From assembly GCF_019966495.1 (NCBI RefSeq), contig NZ_JAIMIA010000012.1:1-64000 (forward strand): DNA of 64,000 bases. The letters run 5' to 3'. Position numbers and translations under genes: made by a program. Origin of the DNA: Tateyamaria pelophila. Lineage in GTDB: Bacteria > Pseudomonadota > Alphaproteobacteria > Rhodobacterales > Rhodobacteraceae. Of this stretch, positions 20,417 to 27,614 are shown piece by piece. Position 1 is the stretch's first letter. Each line of letters starts with the position of its first letter. The notes below the pieces were generated by a model, which searched no databases, had not been told where the DNA came from, and worked only from the letters and a program-made list of their open reading frames with translations.

Positions 20417-21403
20417 TCAGGCGTTCACGTCCACGACAACACGGCCCTTGACCTGACCTTTCAGGATATCCGCCCCCAATTGCGGCAGGTCCGAAAGGGT
20501 CGCGGGCTGTACCATCGCTTCCAGCTTGTCCATCGGCAGGTCCTTGGCGATCCGGTTCCAGGCACGGACACGGTTGTCATAGGGCTGCATCACACTGTCG
20601 ATGCCCAAAAGGTTCACACCGCGCAGCAAAAAGGGAATGACCGTGGCAGACAGGCCCGCGCCCCCTGCAAGACCAACGGCGGCAATACTTGCGCCATATT
20701 CCATCTGGCCCAACACACGGGCCAGCATCGCACCGCCCACGGCGTCCACGCACCCCCCCCAGGTCTCGCCTTCCAGCGGGCGTTTGACGGTTTCATTGAT
20801 CTCTTCGCGGGCGACAATCTGCGTCGCACCCAACGATGTCAGGTAATCCGCAGTTTCGGGACGGCCCGTCACGCCGGCCACCTTATGACCCAGATTGGCA
20901 AGAATGGCCGTCGCCACGGAACCCACACCGCCCGCAGCACCGGTGACCAGAACAGGGCCGGCCTTGAGACCGTGATCTTCCAGCGCCATGACCGCCAGCA
21001 TCGCGGTAAAGCCGGCCGTGCCCACGGCCATCGCCTGCCGGGTGTCGAGGCCCTCAGGCAGCGGCACAAGCCAGTCGGCCTTAACCCGCGCCTTTTGGGA
21101 ATAGCCACCCCAATGGGCCTCGCCGACACGCCAACCCGTCAACACGACCTTGTCCCCGGGGGCATAGCGATCATCATCGGAGGCCTCGACCGTGCCCGCG
21201 AAATCAATGCCCGGCACATGCGGATATTTGCGCACCAACCCGCCGCCCGGACCGATGCACAATCCGTCTTTGTAGTTCACAGTCGAATATTCAACCGCAA
21301 CAGTCACCTCACCAGAGGGCAGATCGTCCAGTGACAACTGCTGCACCGCAGCCGATGTCTTGCCGCTCTCTTCGTCCTTGTTCACCACCAACGCATCAAA
21401 CAT
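20417..21403 (-). CDS. acuI: Acryloyl-CoA reductase (NADPH), AcuI/YhdH type
   Basis: A 328-residue medium-chain dehydrogenase/reductase of the AcuI group, which reduces toxic acryloyl-CoA to propionyl-CoA. Features are YSTVNYKDGLCIGPGGGLVR near the N-terminus, GIDFAGTVE, and the NADPH-binding GAAGGVGSVATAILANLGH. ATG 21403 is chosen because GGAG sits six bases ahead; an ATG at 21415 overlaps that site. It lies directly downstream of dmdA, as in Ruegeria pomeroyi, where acuI and dmdA are cotranscribed. A GC-rich hairpin separates the two genes here. Confidence 0.93.
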   Translation of the reverse strand: MFDALVVNKDEESGKTSAAVQQLSLDDLPSGEVTVAVEYSTVNYKDGLCIGPGGGLVRKYPHVPGIDFAGTVEASDDDRYAPGDKVVLTGWRVGEAHWGGYSQKARVKADWLVPLPEGLDTRQAMAVGTAGFTAMLAVMALEDHGLKAGPVLVTGAAGGVGSVATAILANLGHKVAGVTGRPETADYLTSLGATQIVAREEINETVKRPLEGETWGGCVDAVGGAMLARVLGQMEYGASIAAVGLAGGAGLSATVIPFLLRGVNLLGIDSVMQPYDNRVRAWNRIAKDLPMDKLEAMVQPATLSDLPQLGADILKGQVKGRVVVDVNA

Positions 21404-21460
21404 CTCATTCTCCATTCCGGGGACAGATCCCCTGCTTCATCTTGCATATTAAACTCCGGG

Positions 21461-21488: not shown

Positions 21489-22595
21489 TTACAACCAGAA
21501 CGCCGCTTGCACAGTGGCGCCGCGCAAGCCGTCCCGGGTCTCAACTTCCAGACGCGTCCCTGGGTCCCAATGAGTCATCCGGACCATACCGATCGACACG
21601 TTTGTGGCAAAGTCCGGGGACCACGCCGCCGAGGTGACCTGCCCTACGCGCTTTCCGTCGGCGAAAACCGGCCAGGGCCTGTCGCAGCCCGACACAGGGT
21701 CCCCATCGATCGCGATCGGGCGGATCTGTTGCACGGGGCCTTCCTTCGACACCCGCAGCAATGCATCTCGCCCGATACAGCCGATCGCCGTTCGGGTATC
21801 GCAAAACCGGCCCAACCCGCATTCATGGGGCGTGTTGTCGTCCGTCATGTCATTGCCATAGGACAAAAGGCCGGCCTCGACCCGTTCAATCGCATTGGGG
21901 CATCCCGCCCGGACGTTCAGATCTTGGCCAGCCGCGAAAAGTGCGTTCCACAACGGCATCCCGATATCCGTTCCGTCCACGTAGATCTCAAAGCCGCCCT
22001 GCTTTGAATAGCCCGAGCGCGCAATCGCCAGATCACGACCTTCGAACTGAAACATGTCAAAGCGGAAGAACCGGATATCCCGGACGCGGTCTCCAAACAC
22101 GCGGGCCATCAGATCATCCGATTTCGGGCCCTGAATGGCCAGCGGGCTGATATCGGGCTCGTCCACAAGCACATCCAGGCGGTAACCGTTGGCAATGCCC
22201 TTGACCCAGAGCAGCAAGTCGCTGTCGGCAATGGAAATCCACCACCGGTCCTCGGCCAGCTTGACCGCGACCGGATCGTTCAACATCCCGCCGGTTTCAT
22301 CGACGATGGGCACGTAATAGCACTGCCCGGGCAGCATCCGGCGCAAGTCACGCGGCGTCAGCATCTGCATGAGGCGGCCCGCATCCGGGCCGCGCAGTTC
22401 CACCTGACGCTCGACAGCGACATCCCACACCTGCACGTGATCCTTGAGGTGGCGATAATCGGCCTCGACACTTTCGAACATCGTCGGCAACAGCATCCTG
22501 TTGTAGACGGTATAGGCTTTGACACCTGCCGCCTCGACCCCGTCAGAAAACGGGGTGCGCCGCAACCGGCGCGAAGGGGAAATCACGGCCATCAT
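21489..22595 (-). CDS. dmdA: Dimethylsulfoniopropionate demethylase
   Basis: A 368-residue aminomethyltransferase (GcvT)-like enzyme that moves a methyl group from DMSP to tetrahydrofolate, giving methylmercaptopropionate. It follows known DmdA closely: ESVEADYRHLKDHVQVWDVA, PGQCYYVPIVDETGGMLNDP, WWISIADSDL, SGYSKQGGFEIYVDGT and GCPNAIERVEAGLLSYGND. The last block sets DmdA apart from GcvT. Its ATG overlaps the DinB stop (ATGA). It is part of a minus-strand series DUF2182, DUF1326, DinB, dmdA, acuI. Confidence 0.95.
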   Translation of the reverse strand: MMAVISPSRRLRRTPFSDGVEAAGVKAYTVYNRMLLPTMFESVEADYRHLKDHVQVWDVAVERQVELRGPDAGRLMQMLTPRDLRRMLPGQCYYVPIVDETGGMLNDPVAVKLAEDRWWISIADSDLLLWVKGIANGYRLDVLVDEPDISPLAIQGPKSDDLMARVFGDRVRDIRFFRFDMFQFEGRDLAIARSGYSKQGGFEIYVDGTDIGMPLWNALFAAGQDLNVRAGCPNAIERVEAGLLSYGNDMTDDNTPHECGLGRFCDTRTAIGCIGRDALLRVSKEGPVQQIRPIAIDGDPVSGCDRPWPVFADGKRVGQVTSAAWSPDFATNVSIGMVRMTHWDPGTRLEVETRDGLRGATVQAAFWL

Positions 22596-23098
22596 TCGTC
22601 CTCGGACATAAAGATCAGGTCACTGACCGGTGCGGTCAGTCCAGCGGCGGTCATCATGGCGTGCACCTGGCCGCGATGATGGGTCTGATGGTTGAACAAC
22701 TGTGCCACACACAGGGCACGCGGCCGTTTAAGGTCCCGCTTCAATGTCCCGGAATACCACGTTAAATCCCCAGTCAGATCAAGAGTCCGAACAGTGTCAG
22801 CCCACATGCGGATCGCCCCGTCCAGACGAAATCTCTCCGCACTCCAAACCGCGTAAGTGGGGGTAAAATTCAAATGGTCCGATCCCGGTTCAGGTGCCGC
22901 GACGCGCGGCTCGAACCGGCTCATCCAAAGCGTGTCACCCCATAGCAGATGATTGAGCGTTTGCAGGATTGAGCCAAAGAAGGCGCCACGGTCTTCGCGC
23001 AGCACGTCTTCGGGCACCTCCTTGAGAACCGCCATCAACTGACGGTTCTGCCAGGCATTGTAGCGGGCCATGGTTTGCACATAACCCGCCTCTATCAT
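22592..23098 (-). CDS. DinB family putative metal-dependent enzyme
   Basis: A 168-residue DinB-like four-helix protein. The three metal-ligand histidines expected of the family are seen in TLNHLLWGD and in NHQTHHRGQVH. DinB-fold proteins include thiol-dependent (mycothiol or bacillithiol) transferases, so a thiol-linked reaction is possible. I chose ATG 23098, 28 bp after the DUF1326 stop, and the gene overlaps dmdA by four bases. Its job in a DMSP operon is unknown. Confidence 0.85.
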   Translation of the reverse strand: MIEAGYVQTMARYNAWQNRQLMAVLKEVPEDVLREDRGAFFGSILQTLNHLLWGDTLWMSRFEPRVAAPEPGSDHLNFTPTYAVWSAERFRLDGAIRMWADTVRTLDLTGDLTWYSGTLKRDLKRPRALCVAQLFNHQTHHRGQVHAMMTAAGLTAPVSDLIFMSEDE

Positions 23099-23126: not shown

Positions 23127-23837
23127 TCACGGCTTGGGACCTTTCCAGTCGATCGCACAGATTTCAGCGGACTTGCCGCCAAAGTCCCAGATGCGGCCAT
23201 AGTCGCGCACTTTGGATTTTACACCGCGCGCCGCGATGATGTCAGGCCCCATCCAGTATTTGGAGTTGGTCACCATCACAGGATGATCCGGGTTACCGCC
23301 GTCGATCATCTCGATCTCGCCCTGAATCTTGCGCCCGATGTAAAGCCCGCGTTTTTTGCCATCGCGAACGATATCCACTTTTTCGCGTTCGGCACCGACG
23401 ATGTCGCTGACCAGCATGTTGAACAGGCCGGTGGTGCCCCCGGCCGATCCGGAGAAGATTTGCAGGATGCCGTTGTAAGCTTTGCCGCTGGCGCGTTCAT
23501 CCACATAGGCGGCCACTTTCCAGCCGCCCTCGCCCATGCGGCCCGGGATTTCCACCATCAGACCGACGTTCAGGCCAGACAGGCTCTCGCCTTCGTAATG
23601 GCCATCGTCGATTGCGATCGCCATCCACGCATAACAGTGCCCTTCCGTCGGCGGATGTGCGCCAAGGCTGACCACACAGGGACAAAACACAGTGCATGAA
23701 CAGTTCAAAAACAACTCGCCCTTGATCGCCCAGTCTGTCGGGTGCATCTGCCGGCGTCCCGAACTGCTGGGCATCCGGCTGTCGATCCGCTGACTGATTG
23801 GCAACTTATCCGCGTCTTTACGTTTCTGAACGGCCAT
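23127..23837 (-). CDS. DUF1326 family cysteine-rich protein
   Basis: A 236-residue protein with the DUF1326 hallmark NCSCTVFCPCVVS near residues 56-68, a four-cysteine cluster suited to binding a soft metal such as copper. Later blocks are GHCYAWMAIAIDDGHY and the C-terminal SAEICAIDWKGPKP. No membrane helix or signal peptide is seen, so it is probably cytosolic. ATG 23837 has GGAGG just upstream, inside the end of the DUF2182 gene (2-bp gap), so the two are coupled. Not experimentally characterised, to my knowledge. Confidence 0.85.
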   Translation of the reverse strand: MAVQKRKDADKLPISQRIDSRMPSSSGRRQMHPTDWAIKGELFLNCSCTVFCPCVVSLGAHPPTEGHCYAWMAIAIDDGHYEGESLSGLNVGLMVEIPGRMGEGGWKVAAYVDERASGKAYNGILQIFSGSAGGTTGLFNMLVSDIVGAEREKVDIVRDGKKRGLYIGRKIQGEIEMIDGGNPDHPVMVTNSKYWMGPDIIAARGVKSKVRDYGRIWDFGGKSAEICAIDWKGPKP

Positions 23838-23839
23838 CG

Positions 23840-24628
23840 TTACATTCCTCCGATAAAGGGCCAGACCAACATGGCGAGGCCGGAGATGATCAGGATCACC
23901 CCCATAGGTTTGGTTACAGCATGCCCGATCTGGGGCAGTTTTTCGAGCACCATGAACAGTGTCGCCAGCCCCATCCAGGCCAGGTTCATCACGCCGCCCA
24001 CAAATCCCAGCGCCATGAAGCCCCAGCAACAGCCCACGCAAAATGCGCCAAGGCCCAGTCCCATACGCACCCCTCCGGCAAAGCCGGTGCGCCAGTGGCC
24101 CAGAAAATAGATCATCGGGCTATGGCAAACGCCGTGGCACATTTCCTTGGTGCGGCTGAACTGAAACCCACCAACCGCCAACAGCAAAAGACCTGCGAAG
24201 ACATTGGACTTGGGAATGCCCAGCATGTCGATCACACCGCCATAAAGCAGCGCCAGTTGCGCGCCCGTGATCAGCGCCGCAAAGGCGACCCAGACGATCA
24301 GGTAGCCGGAGATGACGCCGAGCCACCCGGCGCGGGTGCCGTCCGCTGATATCATCAGGTCTTCGTAGCTGCGCAATGTCGGCACCAGTGTCGGCAGCAT
24401 CATCGCCGCCATCATGATCGCCCACATCCAGAACAGCGGCCCGAAATTCGCCATCGGCATATACATTGGCATGCGCGGGTCCATGGCGGCCATAGCTGCG
24501 CCCATCTCTCCCGGACGGCCGAGCAGATCCACATCCATATCCATCGCCATGGAATACATCACCCACCACGCCACGAGGATCAGGCCGAAAAAGCCCAGCC
24601 AAAGTGTGCTGCGAACAAGATGCGGCAT
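23840..24628 (-). CDS. DUF2182 family integral membrane protein (putative metal-binding)
   Basis: A 262-residue protein with about six to seven membrane helices. It is rich in Met in its first loop (MYSMAMDMDV, then MPMYMPMANF) and has two Cys/His clusters: KEMCHGVCHSP and GAFCVGCCWG. This is the COG5486 predicted metal-binding family. Met- and Cys-rich loops recall copper transport proteins. It is first in the minus-strand dmdA series and is divergent from the GntR and methanethiol oxidase genes, which suggests a part in maturing or supplying that copper enzyme. Confidence 0.85.
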   Translation of the reverse strand: MPHLVRSTLWLGFFGLILVAWWVMYSMAMDMDVDLLGRPGEMGAAMAAMDPRMPMYMPMANFGPLFWMWAIMMAAMMLPTLVPTLRSYEDLMISADGTRAGWLGVISGYLIVWVAFAALITGAQLALLYGGVIDMLGIPKSNVFAGLLLLAVGGFQFSRTKEMCHGVCHSPMIYFLGHWRTGFAGGVRMGLGLGAFCVGCCWGFMALGFVGGVMNLAWMGLATLFMVLEKLPQIGHAVTKPMGVILIISGLAMLVWPFIGGM

Positions 24629-24673
24629 GTACCCTCCCTGGCGATGCGGCGACTCAATGCTTGCCAGATTAAA

Positions 24674-24697
24674 TGTCAGACATTAATATGTAAGACA
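24674..24697. promoter_or_regulatory. Paired GntR-type operator in the divergent promoter
   Basis: Two palindromic half-turn-spaced sites lie in the 70-bp gap: TGTCAGACA (24674-24682, perfect) and TGTAAGACA (24689-24697). Their centres are 15 bp apart. TGTnnnACA-like palindromes are typical of FadR-subfamily GntR operators. A related half-site, TTTCAGACA, lies upstream of the methanethiol oxidase gene near 25497. Confidence 0.55.
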
Positions 24698-24698
24698 A

Positions 24699-25487
24699 AT
24701 GAAAATTGATCCAGACAGCACCGCCGACTTCTCAGCCCAGATTGCGCAGGCCATCCGGGATGCCATTGTAAGTGGCGATCTGATCGTGGATCAACGCCTG
24801 CCCTCCGAGGCGGAATTGGCTGATCAGTTCGCGGTGTCCCGGCCCACGGTGCGCGAGGCCCTCAAGCGTCTGGCGGCGCAATCGCTGATCCGCACCCAGC
24901 GTGGTGCCACGGGCGGCGCCTTTGTAAACCGCCTCCGGTTCGAAGAGGCCTATGACCAACAAGTCACCACATCGACCCTGCTGCTGAGCATGAATTCCGT
25001 AAGCTTCGATGTCGCGTGCGAAGCGCGCTATGCGCTCGAACGCGCGTGTGGCCCCCTCGCCGCACAGCGGCGCACGCCGGATCAGCTGGCCACCATGCGC
25101 GCCGAAATTCACCGCCAGTCCCAACCGGGCCTCACCGACGAGGCATTCTGCGCTTCGGACGTCACATTGCACCGGGCGCTGGTCGACGGGGCCGGCAACA
25201 AGGTGCTAAGCTACCAACTGGCCGGAGCCGTTGAGGCGATGCACCCCTTGATGAACATGATCACCTTCACCGCCCGCTCACGCGAACGCATCGTGGCGCT
25301 GCACACCGCGCTTGCAGATGCCCTTGAGGCACAAGATGCAGCGACGGTCGATCAAACACTGGTCGAACTGGAATCGTATACGAGAGAATTGGCGCACAGT
25401 GTCGTGACTGCCCGCGCCCACCAAAAAACAAAAAACGACCCGAACCGCAGAAAACGGACGGAACCCAAGGAGAGCAGATCCGCCTGA
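24699..25487 (+). CDS. GntR/FadR family transcriptional regulator (FCD domain)
   Basis: 262 residues: an N-terminal winged helix (about 15-80) with RLPSEAELADQFAVSRPTVREAL, and a C-terminal all-helical FCD ligand domain with Asp/His metal-site residues (DVTLHRAL, then AGAVEAMHPL). The C-terminus carries a basic, asparagine-rich tail. No Shine-Dalgarno sequence is seen before ATG 24699, and the second operator ends two bases before it, so the message may be leaderless and autorepressed. It probably controls both the DUF2182-dmdA series and the methanethiol oxidase genes; the ligand is unknown. Confidence 0.85.
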   Translation: MKIDPDSTADFSAQIAQAIRDAIVSGDLIVDQRLPSEAELADQFAVSRPTVREALKRLAAQSLIRTQRGATGGAFVNRLRFEEAYDQQVTTSTLLLSMNSVSFDVACEARYALERACGPLAAQRRTPDQLATMRAEIHRQSQPGLTDEAFCASDVTLHRALVDGAGNKVLSYQLAGAVEAMHPLMNMITFTARSRERIVALHTALADALEAQDAATVDQTLVELESYTRELAHSVVTARAHQKTKNDPNRRKRTEPKESRSA

Positions 25488-25556: not shown

Positions 25557-26957
25557 ATGAATTTGAGACCAGATCCAACATTTCACGCCACACCAAAGCT
25601 GGCGATGGAAGCCCCGGTAGAAAAGCTGGCGTTTACGCTGATGCTCAGCCCCGATGGCACAAAACCCGACGGACTTGCCGTAGTCGACGTGGACCCCACC
25701 AGCAAGACGTACAGCCAGATCGTGCATTCGCTTTTCGTGCCGAATCTGGGCGACGAGTTTCACCATTTCGGCTGGAATGCCTGTTCCTCCGCCCTGTCCC
25801 CGCTGACGGGTCACGCCTTTCTGGAACGGCGCTATCTGATCATCCCCGGCATCCGGTCCTCGCGCATCTACATCATCGATGTCAAAGAACCGCTGAAGGC
25901 GAAAATCCACAAGATCATCGAACCCGAGGAACTGTTCGCCAAGACCGGCTATTCGCGCCCGCATACCATCCACTGCGGCCCCGAAGGCATCTATGTCTCG
26001 ACGCTTGGCGGCGGCGGCGAGGACGGCACTGACGGACCTCCCGGTATCTTCATCATGGATTGCGAGACCTTCGACATCCTTGGTCGCTATGAAATGGATC
26101 GTGGCATTCAGGACAAACACTATGACTTCTGGTGGAACCTGCCCCGCGATTACATGGTCAGCAGCGAATGGGGCCTGCCGCCACAGTTTGAAAACGGTGT
26201 CGTTGCCGAAGACTTGCTGAGCAACAAATACGGCCACACCATCCACTTCTGGGACCTGCGCGCGCGCAAGGTGGTCAAGTCGCTGGACCTTGGCGAAAAC
26301 CACCAGATGGCGCTGGAAATCCGGCCTGCACATGACCCGGTCAAGGAATACGGGTTCTGCGGCGTGGTGGTCGACACCACCAACCTGCAAGGCGCGATCT
26401 TCACCTGGTGGAAGGACGAAAATGGCGAGTGGCAGGCCAAAAAGACGATCACGATCGATCCCGTCCCAGCCGATGCCGACGACCTGCCCGACCTGCTGAA
26501 AGGGTTCGGCGCCGTGCCACCACTGGTGACGGATATCGACCTGAGCATGGACGACAAGTACCTCTATGTCGCGTGCTGGGGTCTGGGGGAGATGCATCAA
26601 TATGATGTGTCCGACCCGATGAACCCGGTTCTGGCGGGCAAGGTCGAGATCGGCGGTATCGTCAACAAGACCAAGCACCCCAACGGCAAGGCGTTCGGCT
26701 ATGGCCCGCAAATGGTCGAGATCAGCCGCGATGGCAAGCGGGTCTACTGGACCAACTCGCTCTATTCCACTTGGGATGACCAGTTCTATCCTGGCGAACG
26801 GGGGGCCGCGATGGTCATGGCCAATGTGGGCGAAAACGGCGGCATCACGCTGGACGAGAATTTCTGGACGGAATTCCCCGAAGGCTACCGAAGCCACCAG
26901 ATCCGGCTTGAGGGCGGCGACTGTTCGACGGACAGTTTCTGCTATCCGTCGGTCTAA
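25557..26957 (+). CDS. mtoX: Methanethiol oxidase, SBP56/SELENBP1 family
   Basis: A 466-residue selenium-binding-protein-56 family enzyme, copper-dependent in characterised bacterial MtoX. It oxidises methanethiol to formaldehyde, sulfide and hydrogen peroxide. Family blocks are FHHFGWNACSSALSPL (the conserved Cys region), GIRSSRIYIIDVKEP, RPHTIHCGPEGIYVSTLGG, DFWWNLPRDYMVSSEWG and RVYWTNSLYSTWDDQFYP. AGGGAGGA precedes ATG 25557. No signal peptide is visible, although the Hyphomicrobium enzyme is periplasmic. It follows the GntR gene by 69 bp. Confidence 0.9.
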   Translation: MNLRPDPTFHATPKLAMEAPVEKLAFTLMLSPDGTKPDGLAVVDVDPTSKTYSQIVHSLFVPNLGDEFHHFGWNACSSALSPLTGHAFLERRYLIIPGIRSSRIYIIDVKEPLKAKIHKIIEPEELFAKTGYSRPHTIHCGPEGIYVSTLGGGGEDGTDGPPGIFIMDCETFDILGRYEMDRGIQDKHYDFWWNLPRDYMVSSEWGLPPQFENGVVAEDLLSNKYGHTIHFWDLRARKVVKSLDLGENHQMALEIRPAHDPVKEYGFCGVVVDTTNLQGAIFTWWKDENGEWQAKKTITIDPVPADADDLPDLLKGFGAVPPLVTDIDLSMDDKYLYVACWGLGEMHQYDVSDPMNPVLAGKVEIGGIVNKTKHPNGKAFGYGPQMVEISRDGKRVYWTNSLYSTWDDQFYPGERGAAMVMANVGENGGITLDENFWTEFPEGYRSHQIRLEGGDCSTDSFCYPSV

Positions 26958-26960
26958 GGC

Positions 26961-27614
26961 GTGGACCTCACGACAGCGGCGGGCCTCTGGCTCGCCGTCA
27001 TTGTGTCCGGGCTCTATCACGGGCTGAACCCCGGCATGGGCTGGCCGCTGGCTGTGTCGTCGGCGCTGTTCGAGCGACGACGCTCGGCCCTGTGGCCGGC
27101 ACTTGGTGCTTTGTCCGTCGGCCATTTCGTGGCGATGCTGGGCATTCTGCTCCCATTTTCGATGATGACGCTGTTGATCGACAACCAACGCGAAATACGG
27201 ATCGGTGCCGGCCTCGTTGTTATTGCCATGGGCTTGTATCTGGCCATCACGCGGCGCCACCCCCGCTTTCTGGCGCGCATTCCGCCACACAAGCTGGGAC
27301 TGTGGTCTTTTCTTGTGGCCTTGGCGCATGGCGCGGCCCTGATGCTGGTCCCGATCTATCTGGGACTATGTGCACTCGAAGAGCTTGACACCGGCCACCG
27401 CGCCGCAAGCGCGCTGATGACGACCACAGCGCTGGCGCTGGCCGTCGCGATTCTGCATACCGTCGCCATGATGGGGTCAGGTGGCGCAATGGCCTATGCG
27501 GTTCACCGTTGGCTGGGTCTCCAGTTCCTGAGCAAAGGCTGGTTCGATCTGGAGTTGCTGTGGGCCGTCAGTTTGATTGCCGTCGGTGGCATTGGGCTCT
27601 GGACGGCGATTTGA
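26961..27614 (+). CDS. Small polytopic membrane protein, possibly metal-transport related
   Basis: A 217-residue protein with about six to seven membrane helices, starting at GTG 26961, three bases after the mtoX stop, so the two are probably cotranscribed. The first helix contains SGLYHGLNPGMGWPLAVSS, reminiscent of the HxxxPxH-type motif of NicO/UreH-like metal permeases but lacking their second His. Another His-bearing helix is AHGAALMLVPIYLG. I do not recognise the exact family. Position next to mtoX suggests a metal or cofactor role; this is inference. Confidence 0.75.
   Translation: MDLTTAAGLWLAVIVSGLYHGLNPGMGWPLAVSSALFERRRSALWPALGALSVGHFVAMLGILLPFSMMTLLIDNQREIRIGAGLVVIAMGLYLAITRRHPRFLARIPPHKLGLWSFLVALAHGAALMLVPIYLGLCALEELDTGHRAASALMTTTALALAVAILHTVAMMGSGGAMAYAVHRWLGLQFLSKGWFDLELLWAVSLIAVGGIGLWTAI

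Follow-up and report, generated by a model that had tools for sequence, protein, structure and literature searches.

The PpoB2-DUF1326 pair of a DMSP-demethylation operon in Tateyamaria pelophila and its relation to a neighboring SBP56 methanethiol oxidase

Genes for a DUF2182 protein and a DUF1326 protein lie close to an SBP56 gene, of the methanethiol oxidase family, in the 64,000-nucleotide stretch of Tateyamaria pelophila DNA analyzed here (the window). A preliminary description of this DNA took the two proteins for a copper-supply module of the oxidase that replaces SCO1/SenC and MauG, the helpers encoded with mtoX in Hyphomicrobium. Does the pair serve the oxidase, or does it belong with the genes on its other side? 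These encode a DinB-family protein, DmdA, and AcuI, and they had been left unconnected to the pair in that description. DMSP demethylation is a main route of marine sulfur.

The PpoB2-DUF1326 pair and its operon

The DUF2182 protein (23840..24628, (-) strand, 262 amino acids; COG5486) is a membrane protein and a candidate copper-transfer protein. It matches Pfam PF09948 with 200 bits (E 4e-59, cut-off 28.7) over profile positions 1-187 of 188, and the current Pfam title of this family is PpoB2, 'Copper chaperone'. Across 36 PpoB2 proteins, residues C164, C168, C197, C200, C201, M68, M72, M76, and M77 are invariant. Other details described earlier have a narrower reach: the N-terminal Met-rich loop is well kept in close relatives only and is largely missing from the GntR-linked sister clade, CHGVCH has its His residues in some clades only and reads CLxxCR in others, and of the two clusters assigned to membrane helices C197-C201 lies inside a hydrophobic peak, whereas C164 and C168 lie outside. 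By sequence, neither PpoB2 nor DUF1326 has a close relative in the PDB, and the names DUF2182 and DUF1326 gave no match in the open-access literature. Genetic evidence from Marinomonas mediterranea indicates that its PpoB2, the only family member tested, is specific in its copper transfer: the tyrosinase PpoB1 receives the metal and another copper oxidase does not, so that the copper goes to an enzyme and not into detoxification (PMC2855505). This provides a genetic precedent, not cited previously, for reading DUF2182 proteins as metal-handling. The operon of PpoB1 and PpoB2 resembles that of the window in having a PF09948 membrane protein with conserved Met and Cys beside metabolic genes, but the window operon has DMSP genes and DUF1326 and no tyrosinase.

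The DUF1326 protein (23127..23837, (-) strand, 236 amino acids) matches PF07040 with 158.9 bits (E 2e-46, cut-off 25) and has a Cys cluster. This cluster, of the form CxCxxxCPC and accompanied by C68, reads CSCTVFCPC here, as had been described, and residues C46, C48, C52, P53, C54, and C68 are invariant among 27 DUF1326 proteins. The predicted structure (pLDDT 85.5) matched acetoacetate decarboxylase in Foldseek (E 1.3e-5), and the VIA comparison with the acetoacetate decarboxylase family gave a Z of ∼11 over 150-162 residues, well above the unrelated entries. As modeled, DUF1326 has an acetoacetate-decarboxylase-like barrel, which is a statement about its fold and not about its function. Only 2 nt separate the stop codon of PpoB2 (23842-23840) from the ATG of DUF1326 (23837); the two genes do not overlap, but the short distance makes the translational coupling suggested earlier plausible. 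In the L083 and L157 loci of Tateyamaria sp. Alg231-49, an insertion of ∼3 kb separates PpoB2 from the divergent GntR gene, and DUF1326 is 69% identical compared with 84-86% for its neighbors, which suggests a gene replacement.

Three further (-)-strand genes complete the operon. The third gene encodes a DinB-family protein (22592..23098; PF05163, 74 bits), for which we inferred the start, the mechanical open reading frame beginning at 23200. The gene for the DMSP demethylase DmdA (21489..22595; NF009133, 693 bits, cut-off 410) has a 4-nt overlap with the DinB stop, and the last gene encodes an AcuI-like acrylyl-CoA reductase (20417..21415) that scored 443 bits against TIGR02823 (cut-off 297) and 408 bits against the AcuI model NF051456, just below the cut-off of 440. 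With DmdA scoring higher than the equivalog threshold and an AcuI-like gene behind it, the cluster qualifies as a DMSP-demethylase operon. To judge by their families, none of the DmdA, AcuI, and DinB proteins is a copper enzyme, and we know of no copper enzyme in the operon.

In a survey of 149 Rhodobacteraceae genomes, one per genus and some of them incomplete, PpoB2 was present in 82 genera and DUF1326 in 79, all of which also have PpoB2, and DmdA exceeded its cut-off in 64. Where a genome contained both DmdA and PpoB2, dmdA was located 0.7-2.3 kb downstream of PpoB2 on the same strand in 48 of 53 cases. The pair and an orthologue of the GntR regulator were constant in 21 PpoB2 loci (20 read with their flanks, plus the window), and these loci also contained an AcuI-like gene (21/21), DmdA (19/21), and DinB (15/21). 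In genomes without DmdA (L277-L280), AcuI is still found after PpoB2-DUF1326. PpoB2 is missing from 11 of the 64 DmdA genomes, and in Leisingera sp. ANG-M7 (L257) the GntR gene is directly divergent from dmdA-acuI with neither PpoB2 nor DUF1326 between them, so demethylation can do without the pair. We recognized no copper enzyme among the recurring neighbors of PpoB2 pairs that are unlinked to dmdA.

The dmdA-acuI order is that of the roseobacter operon of Ruegeria pomeroyi DSS-3, where the GntR orthologue also stands beside dmdA-acuI as in the Leisingera locus. The window differs in having PpoB2, DUF1326, and, as is often the case, DinB between the regulator and dmdA. Co-induction of dmdA-acuI by acrylate or DMSP has been reported (PMC3338564), and the portions of open-access text available to us, that paper included, contain no mention of PpoB2, DUF1326, or DinB as members of the operon.

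The SBP56 oxidase and its partner ORF5

The pair had been described as divergent from mtoX. The divergent gene is in fact that of a GntR/FCD-family regulator (24699..25487, (+) strand; PF00392 and PF07729), and the SBP56 gene (25557..26957, (+) strand, 466 amino acids; PF05694, 574 bits) follows it. Nor did the enzyme prove to be an MtoX of the Hyphomicrobium type. It scored 120 bits against the NCBIfam MtoX model (NF052453, cut-off 650), its N terminus, which starts MNLRPDPTFHATPK, is not signal-like, and it carries the 'cluster 1' motifs GWNACS, HTIHC, and GGDCS with C76, C140, and C456 (motif definition in PMC10936201). Judged from these features, it is a cluster-1 methanethiol oxidase rather than a periplasmic enzyme. 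Three groups of SBP56 proteins were found in the survey, and that of the window is characterized by scores of ∼575 bits, the cluster-1 motifs, and Cys at 76/140/456. The putative copper-ligand His residues of SBP56 are conserved, which is in keeping with a dedicated copper delivery to the enzyme.

The cluster-1 enzymes RdMTO and RlMTO of the Rhodobacteraceae share the three motifs, and the Cys numbering of the window protein is that of RlMTO. When RlMTO was expressed in E. coli, with the MTO gene as the only one named for the plasmid, it consumed methanethiol (PMC10936201). The activity of this enzyme in E. coli counts against dedicated delivery by the pair. In comparison, the assignment of the window enzyme comes from its sequence, and ORF5, the gene behind it, is not considered in the part of that work available to us. 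The operons of mtoX with SCO1/senC and mauG in Hyphomicrobium sp. VS and R. pomeroyi (SPOA0268-0272) likewise have an SBP56 oxidase with a copper-handling family nearby, but the window has a cluster-1 SBP56 with no signal-like N terminus, ORF5 instead of SCO1/MauG, and a GntR instead of an IclR regulator. Neither SCO1/SenC nor MauG was present among the neighbors identified from 17.8 to 29.5 kb, where SBP56 is followed by ORF5 and then by a SYLF-like protein.

ORF5 (26961..27614, (+) strand, 217 amino acids) lies directly behind SBP56 and encodes a membrane protein. A scan with the SBP56 protein of the window yielded 80 named loci spread over many genera, with Marinobacter, Geminicoccaceae, and a symbiont of the Chromatiales among them, and ORF5 was directly downstream of SBP56 in all 80; besides ORF5, no neighbor recurred widely. 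In a profile search ORF5 was detected in 34 of the 149 genera, in each beside SBP56 and never elsewhere, and in the one genome with window-type SBP56 that gave no ORF5 match (G056) the gene is cut by a contig edge. Residues H20, P24, M26, W28, H55, H123, M128, and H166 are invariant and N23 and H100 nearly so, with the invariant His and Met located in or near the predicted helices (model pLDDT 82). No credible Pfam family was obtained for any of 58 members, and the model gave no significant Foldseek match; in a LysE/CcdA-like fold comparison, the best match of the same size was to CcdA, a weak one (Z of 6.5, r.m.s.d. of 4.5, 180 residues). On this sequence evidence ORF5 is an obligate partner of the window-type SBP56 class and a membrane protein without a described family.

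We tentatively raise the possibility that ORF5 is a permease of approximately six helices and supplies the cytosolic oxidase with imported copper or another metal, or else transports its sulfur substrate or product. Metal supply would fit the strict pairing, the invariant His and Met, and the weak likeness to CcdA, and an SBP56 protein without a signal-like N terminus would need its metal in the cytosol. However, the lack of Pfam and Foldseek matches speaks against this, as does the activity in E. coli of a cluster-1 enzyme with no added partner reported (PMC10936201), and the transport of sulfur compounds would fit the same pattern.

Co-occurrence with SBP56 and a shared promoter site

Genome-wide co-occurrence with SBP56 had been proposed as a check on the copper-supply reading. 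Across the 149 genera, PpoB2 was indeed associated with window-type SBP56 (odds ratio of 5.3), but DmdA is associated with both, and with DmdA status held constant the association was no longer significant. The odds ratio was 1.84 (95% CI 0.49-7.85) within DmdA-positive and 1.58 (0.22-10.1) within DmdA-negative genomes, with a Mantel-Haenszel p of 0.13, in a stratified test that has wide intervals and statistics that ignore kinship. We therefore rejected the raw ratio as proof of copper supply, although intervals of this width could still hide a weak specific link. Dedicated delivery to SBP56 is also favored by the presence of PpoB2 in 14 of 19 genomes with class A/B SBP56 in a phylum survey, by a very divergent PpoB2 (26% identity; L282, G136:C5) without DUF1326 that follows a class-A SBP56 at a distance of ∼0.7 kb and shares its strand, and by the pair adjoining SBP56 in 18 of 20 congeneric genomes, which is explicable by descent. 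Against it, the pair is found within 8 kb of SBP56 in just 8 of the 80 named loci, the genome contains no SBP56 for 16 of the 48 dmdA-linked pairs, and six genomes, including the complete G003 and G038, have window-type SBP56 without PpoB2-DUF1326. In G066, dmdA, SBP56, and ORF5 stand in a row in a genome without the pair. The linkage to dmdA in 48 of 53 genomes, the pairs without SBP56, the SBP56 genes without the pair, and the conditional test lead us to conclude, from gene content and order, that PpoB2-DUF1326 is a regular component of the roseobacter operon for DMSP demethylation and not a dedicated helper of the neighboring oxidase.

The genome of T. pelophila contains a second SBP56, of class A, on another contig (C278; L284, 1540..8607). 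An IclR-type regulator is encoded divergently from it, and the genes behind it encode an enoyl-CoA hydratase and an acyl-CoA ligase as well as a DmdA-like protein that reached 376 bits (cut-off 410); together they form a second demethylase-like cluster.

The GntR orthologue adjoins the pair in loci both with and without SBP56. The divergent GntR/PpoB2 promoter contains two tandem palindromes, TGTCTGACA and TGTCTTACA (24671..24699, no strand assigned), which are a candidate operator for GntR and follow the pattern TGTC-N-(G/T)ACA, conserved across loci. A weight matrix was built from the GntR/PpoB2 promoters alone and then applied upstream of SBP56. Of 72 loci unlinked to the pair, 18 had the same site at 73-120 bp ahead of SBP56, with scores of 17-29 compared with a background 99th percentile of 9.2 and a clear gap to the other loci. 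As these come mainly from relatives of Roseobacter, Roseovarius, Yoonia, Marimonas, and Litoreibacter, the 18 sites do not represent 18 independent events. The site is less frequent when each genus is represented once (2 of 32 window-type SBP56). All 18 genomes carry a true orthologue of the GntR protein elsewhere (71-80%), and in the 17 for which its locus was retrieved it stands beside PpoB2-DUF1326 with the site (17/17). No GntR-type gene is present within the SBP56 flanks in 13 of the 18; in the other 5 a GntR paralogue is nearby and could be the actual binder.

The inclusion of class-A SBP56 in the same regulon was considered and rejected, the site being found in 1 of 23 only. Several class-A SBP56 genes (e.g. 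L013, L016, and L018) have a related element, CTTCTGTCCGACAATTT, in their upstream regions at a distance of ∼120 bp, possibly the site of a different regulator. A genome-wide GntR regulon in T. pelophila was likewise rejected; the strict pattern gave seven matches, equal to the reversed control count. Three of them overlap in the window cluster, the only meaningful one, and the other four, without evident DMSP context, are at chance level. The name 'DmdR' is present in the open-access literature in unrelated uses only.

Within the window there is no palindromic site between GntR and SBP56, which makes joint transcription of GntR with SBP56-ORF5 probable. Linkage of SBP56-ORF5 to dmdA takes three forms: after GntR, in Tateyamaria and some Ruegeria; after acuI, in Pacificoceanicola onchidii (L065, 3335..10056), with the arrangement GntR / PpoB2-DUF1326-dmdA-acuI-SBP56-ORF5; and directly after dmdA, in G066. 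Together with the shared promoter site, these linkages support a link, at the level of the pathway, between the SBP56 unit and the operon of the pair. Because the pathway releases methanethiol, the substrate of SBP56, SBP56-ORF5 has probably become attached to the operon or its regulator several times. A more elaborate arrangement, in which ORF5 founds a new transporter family importing copper for cytosolic SBP56 only, PpoB2-DUF1326 serves the rest of the DMSP-demethylation regulon, and one GntR controls both, seems to us doubtful.

A proposed copper-handling role for the pair

In the explanation that we favor, and consider probable, PpoB2 and DUF1326 form a copper-handling accessory to the PpoB2-DUF1326-(DinB)-dmdA-acuI operon, and SBP56-ORF5 is a separate unit attached to this operon or its regulator on several occasions. 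The operon would be read divergently from its GntR regulator, PpoB2 may move Cu(I) at the membrane using its invariant Met and Cys as ligands, and DUF1326 may receive or hold the Cu(I) through its Cys cluster. While thiols are being made by the pathway, this copper could serve the metal balance of the cytosol or supply copper enzymes, and SBP56 would be perhaps one copper client where present but not the reason for the existence of the pair. Copper handling by PpoB2-DUF1326 is plausible given the PpoB2 precedent and the conservation of Cys and Met. Counting against the explanation as a whole is the fold of DUF1326, which resembles acetoacetate decarboxylase and not a known copper chaperone. 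So do the operon's lack of any known copper enzyme, the DmdA genomes and the Leisingera locus without the pair, the GntR paralogue near 5 of the 18 SBP56 sites, and the low frequency of the site in the one-per-genus set. The metal-handling part of the preliminary description thus survives in this explanation, but its dedication to MtoX does not.

Alternatively, the pair could bind or export Cu(I) as a protection against copper-thiol or electrophile stress arising from the operon (methanethiol and acryloyl-CoA), without delivery to any enzyme. The pair persists beside AcuI, the enzyme that disposes of toxic acryloyl-CoA, also in genomes that lack DmdA, and this would suit protection, as would the usual presence of a DinB-family protein in the operon and the many pairs in genomes without SBP56. 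No sequence feature here separates protection from delivery, but the sole tested relative of PpoB2 supplies an enzyme with copper (PMC2855505), and we regard protection as unlikely. Least probable is the dedicated delivery of copper to SBP56 by PpoB2 and DUF1326 in place of SCO1 and MauG, which has a parallel in the enzyme-specific copper transfer of Marinomonas (PMC2855505) but is not supported here, the constant partners of the pair being GntR, DmdA, and AcuI and not SBP56.

If a pair of the copper-chaperone type regularly belongs to the dmdA operon, as in the explanation favored above, DMSP demethylation would be tied to copper supply, a connection that is testable in culturable roseobacters. 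ORF5, for its part, is an undescribed obligate membrane partner for cytosolic methanethiol oxidases.
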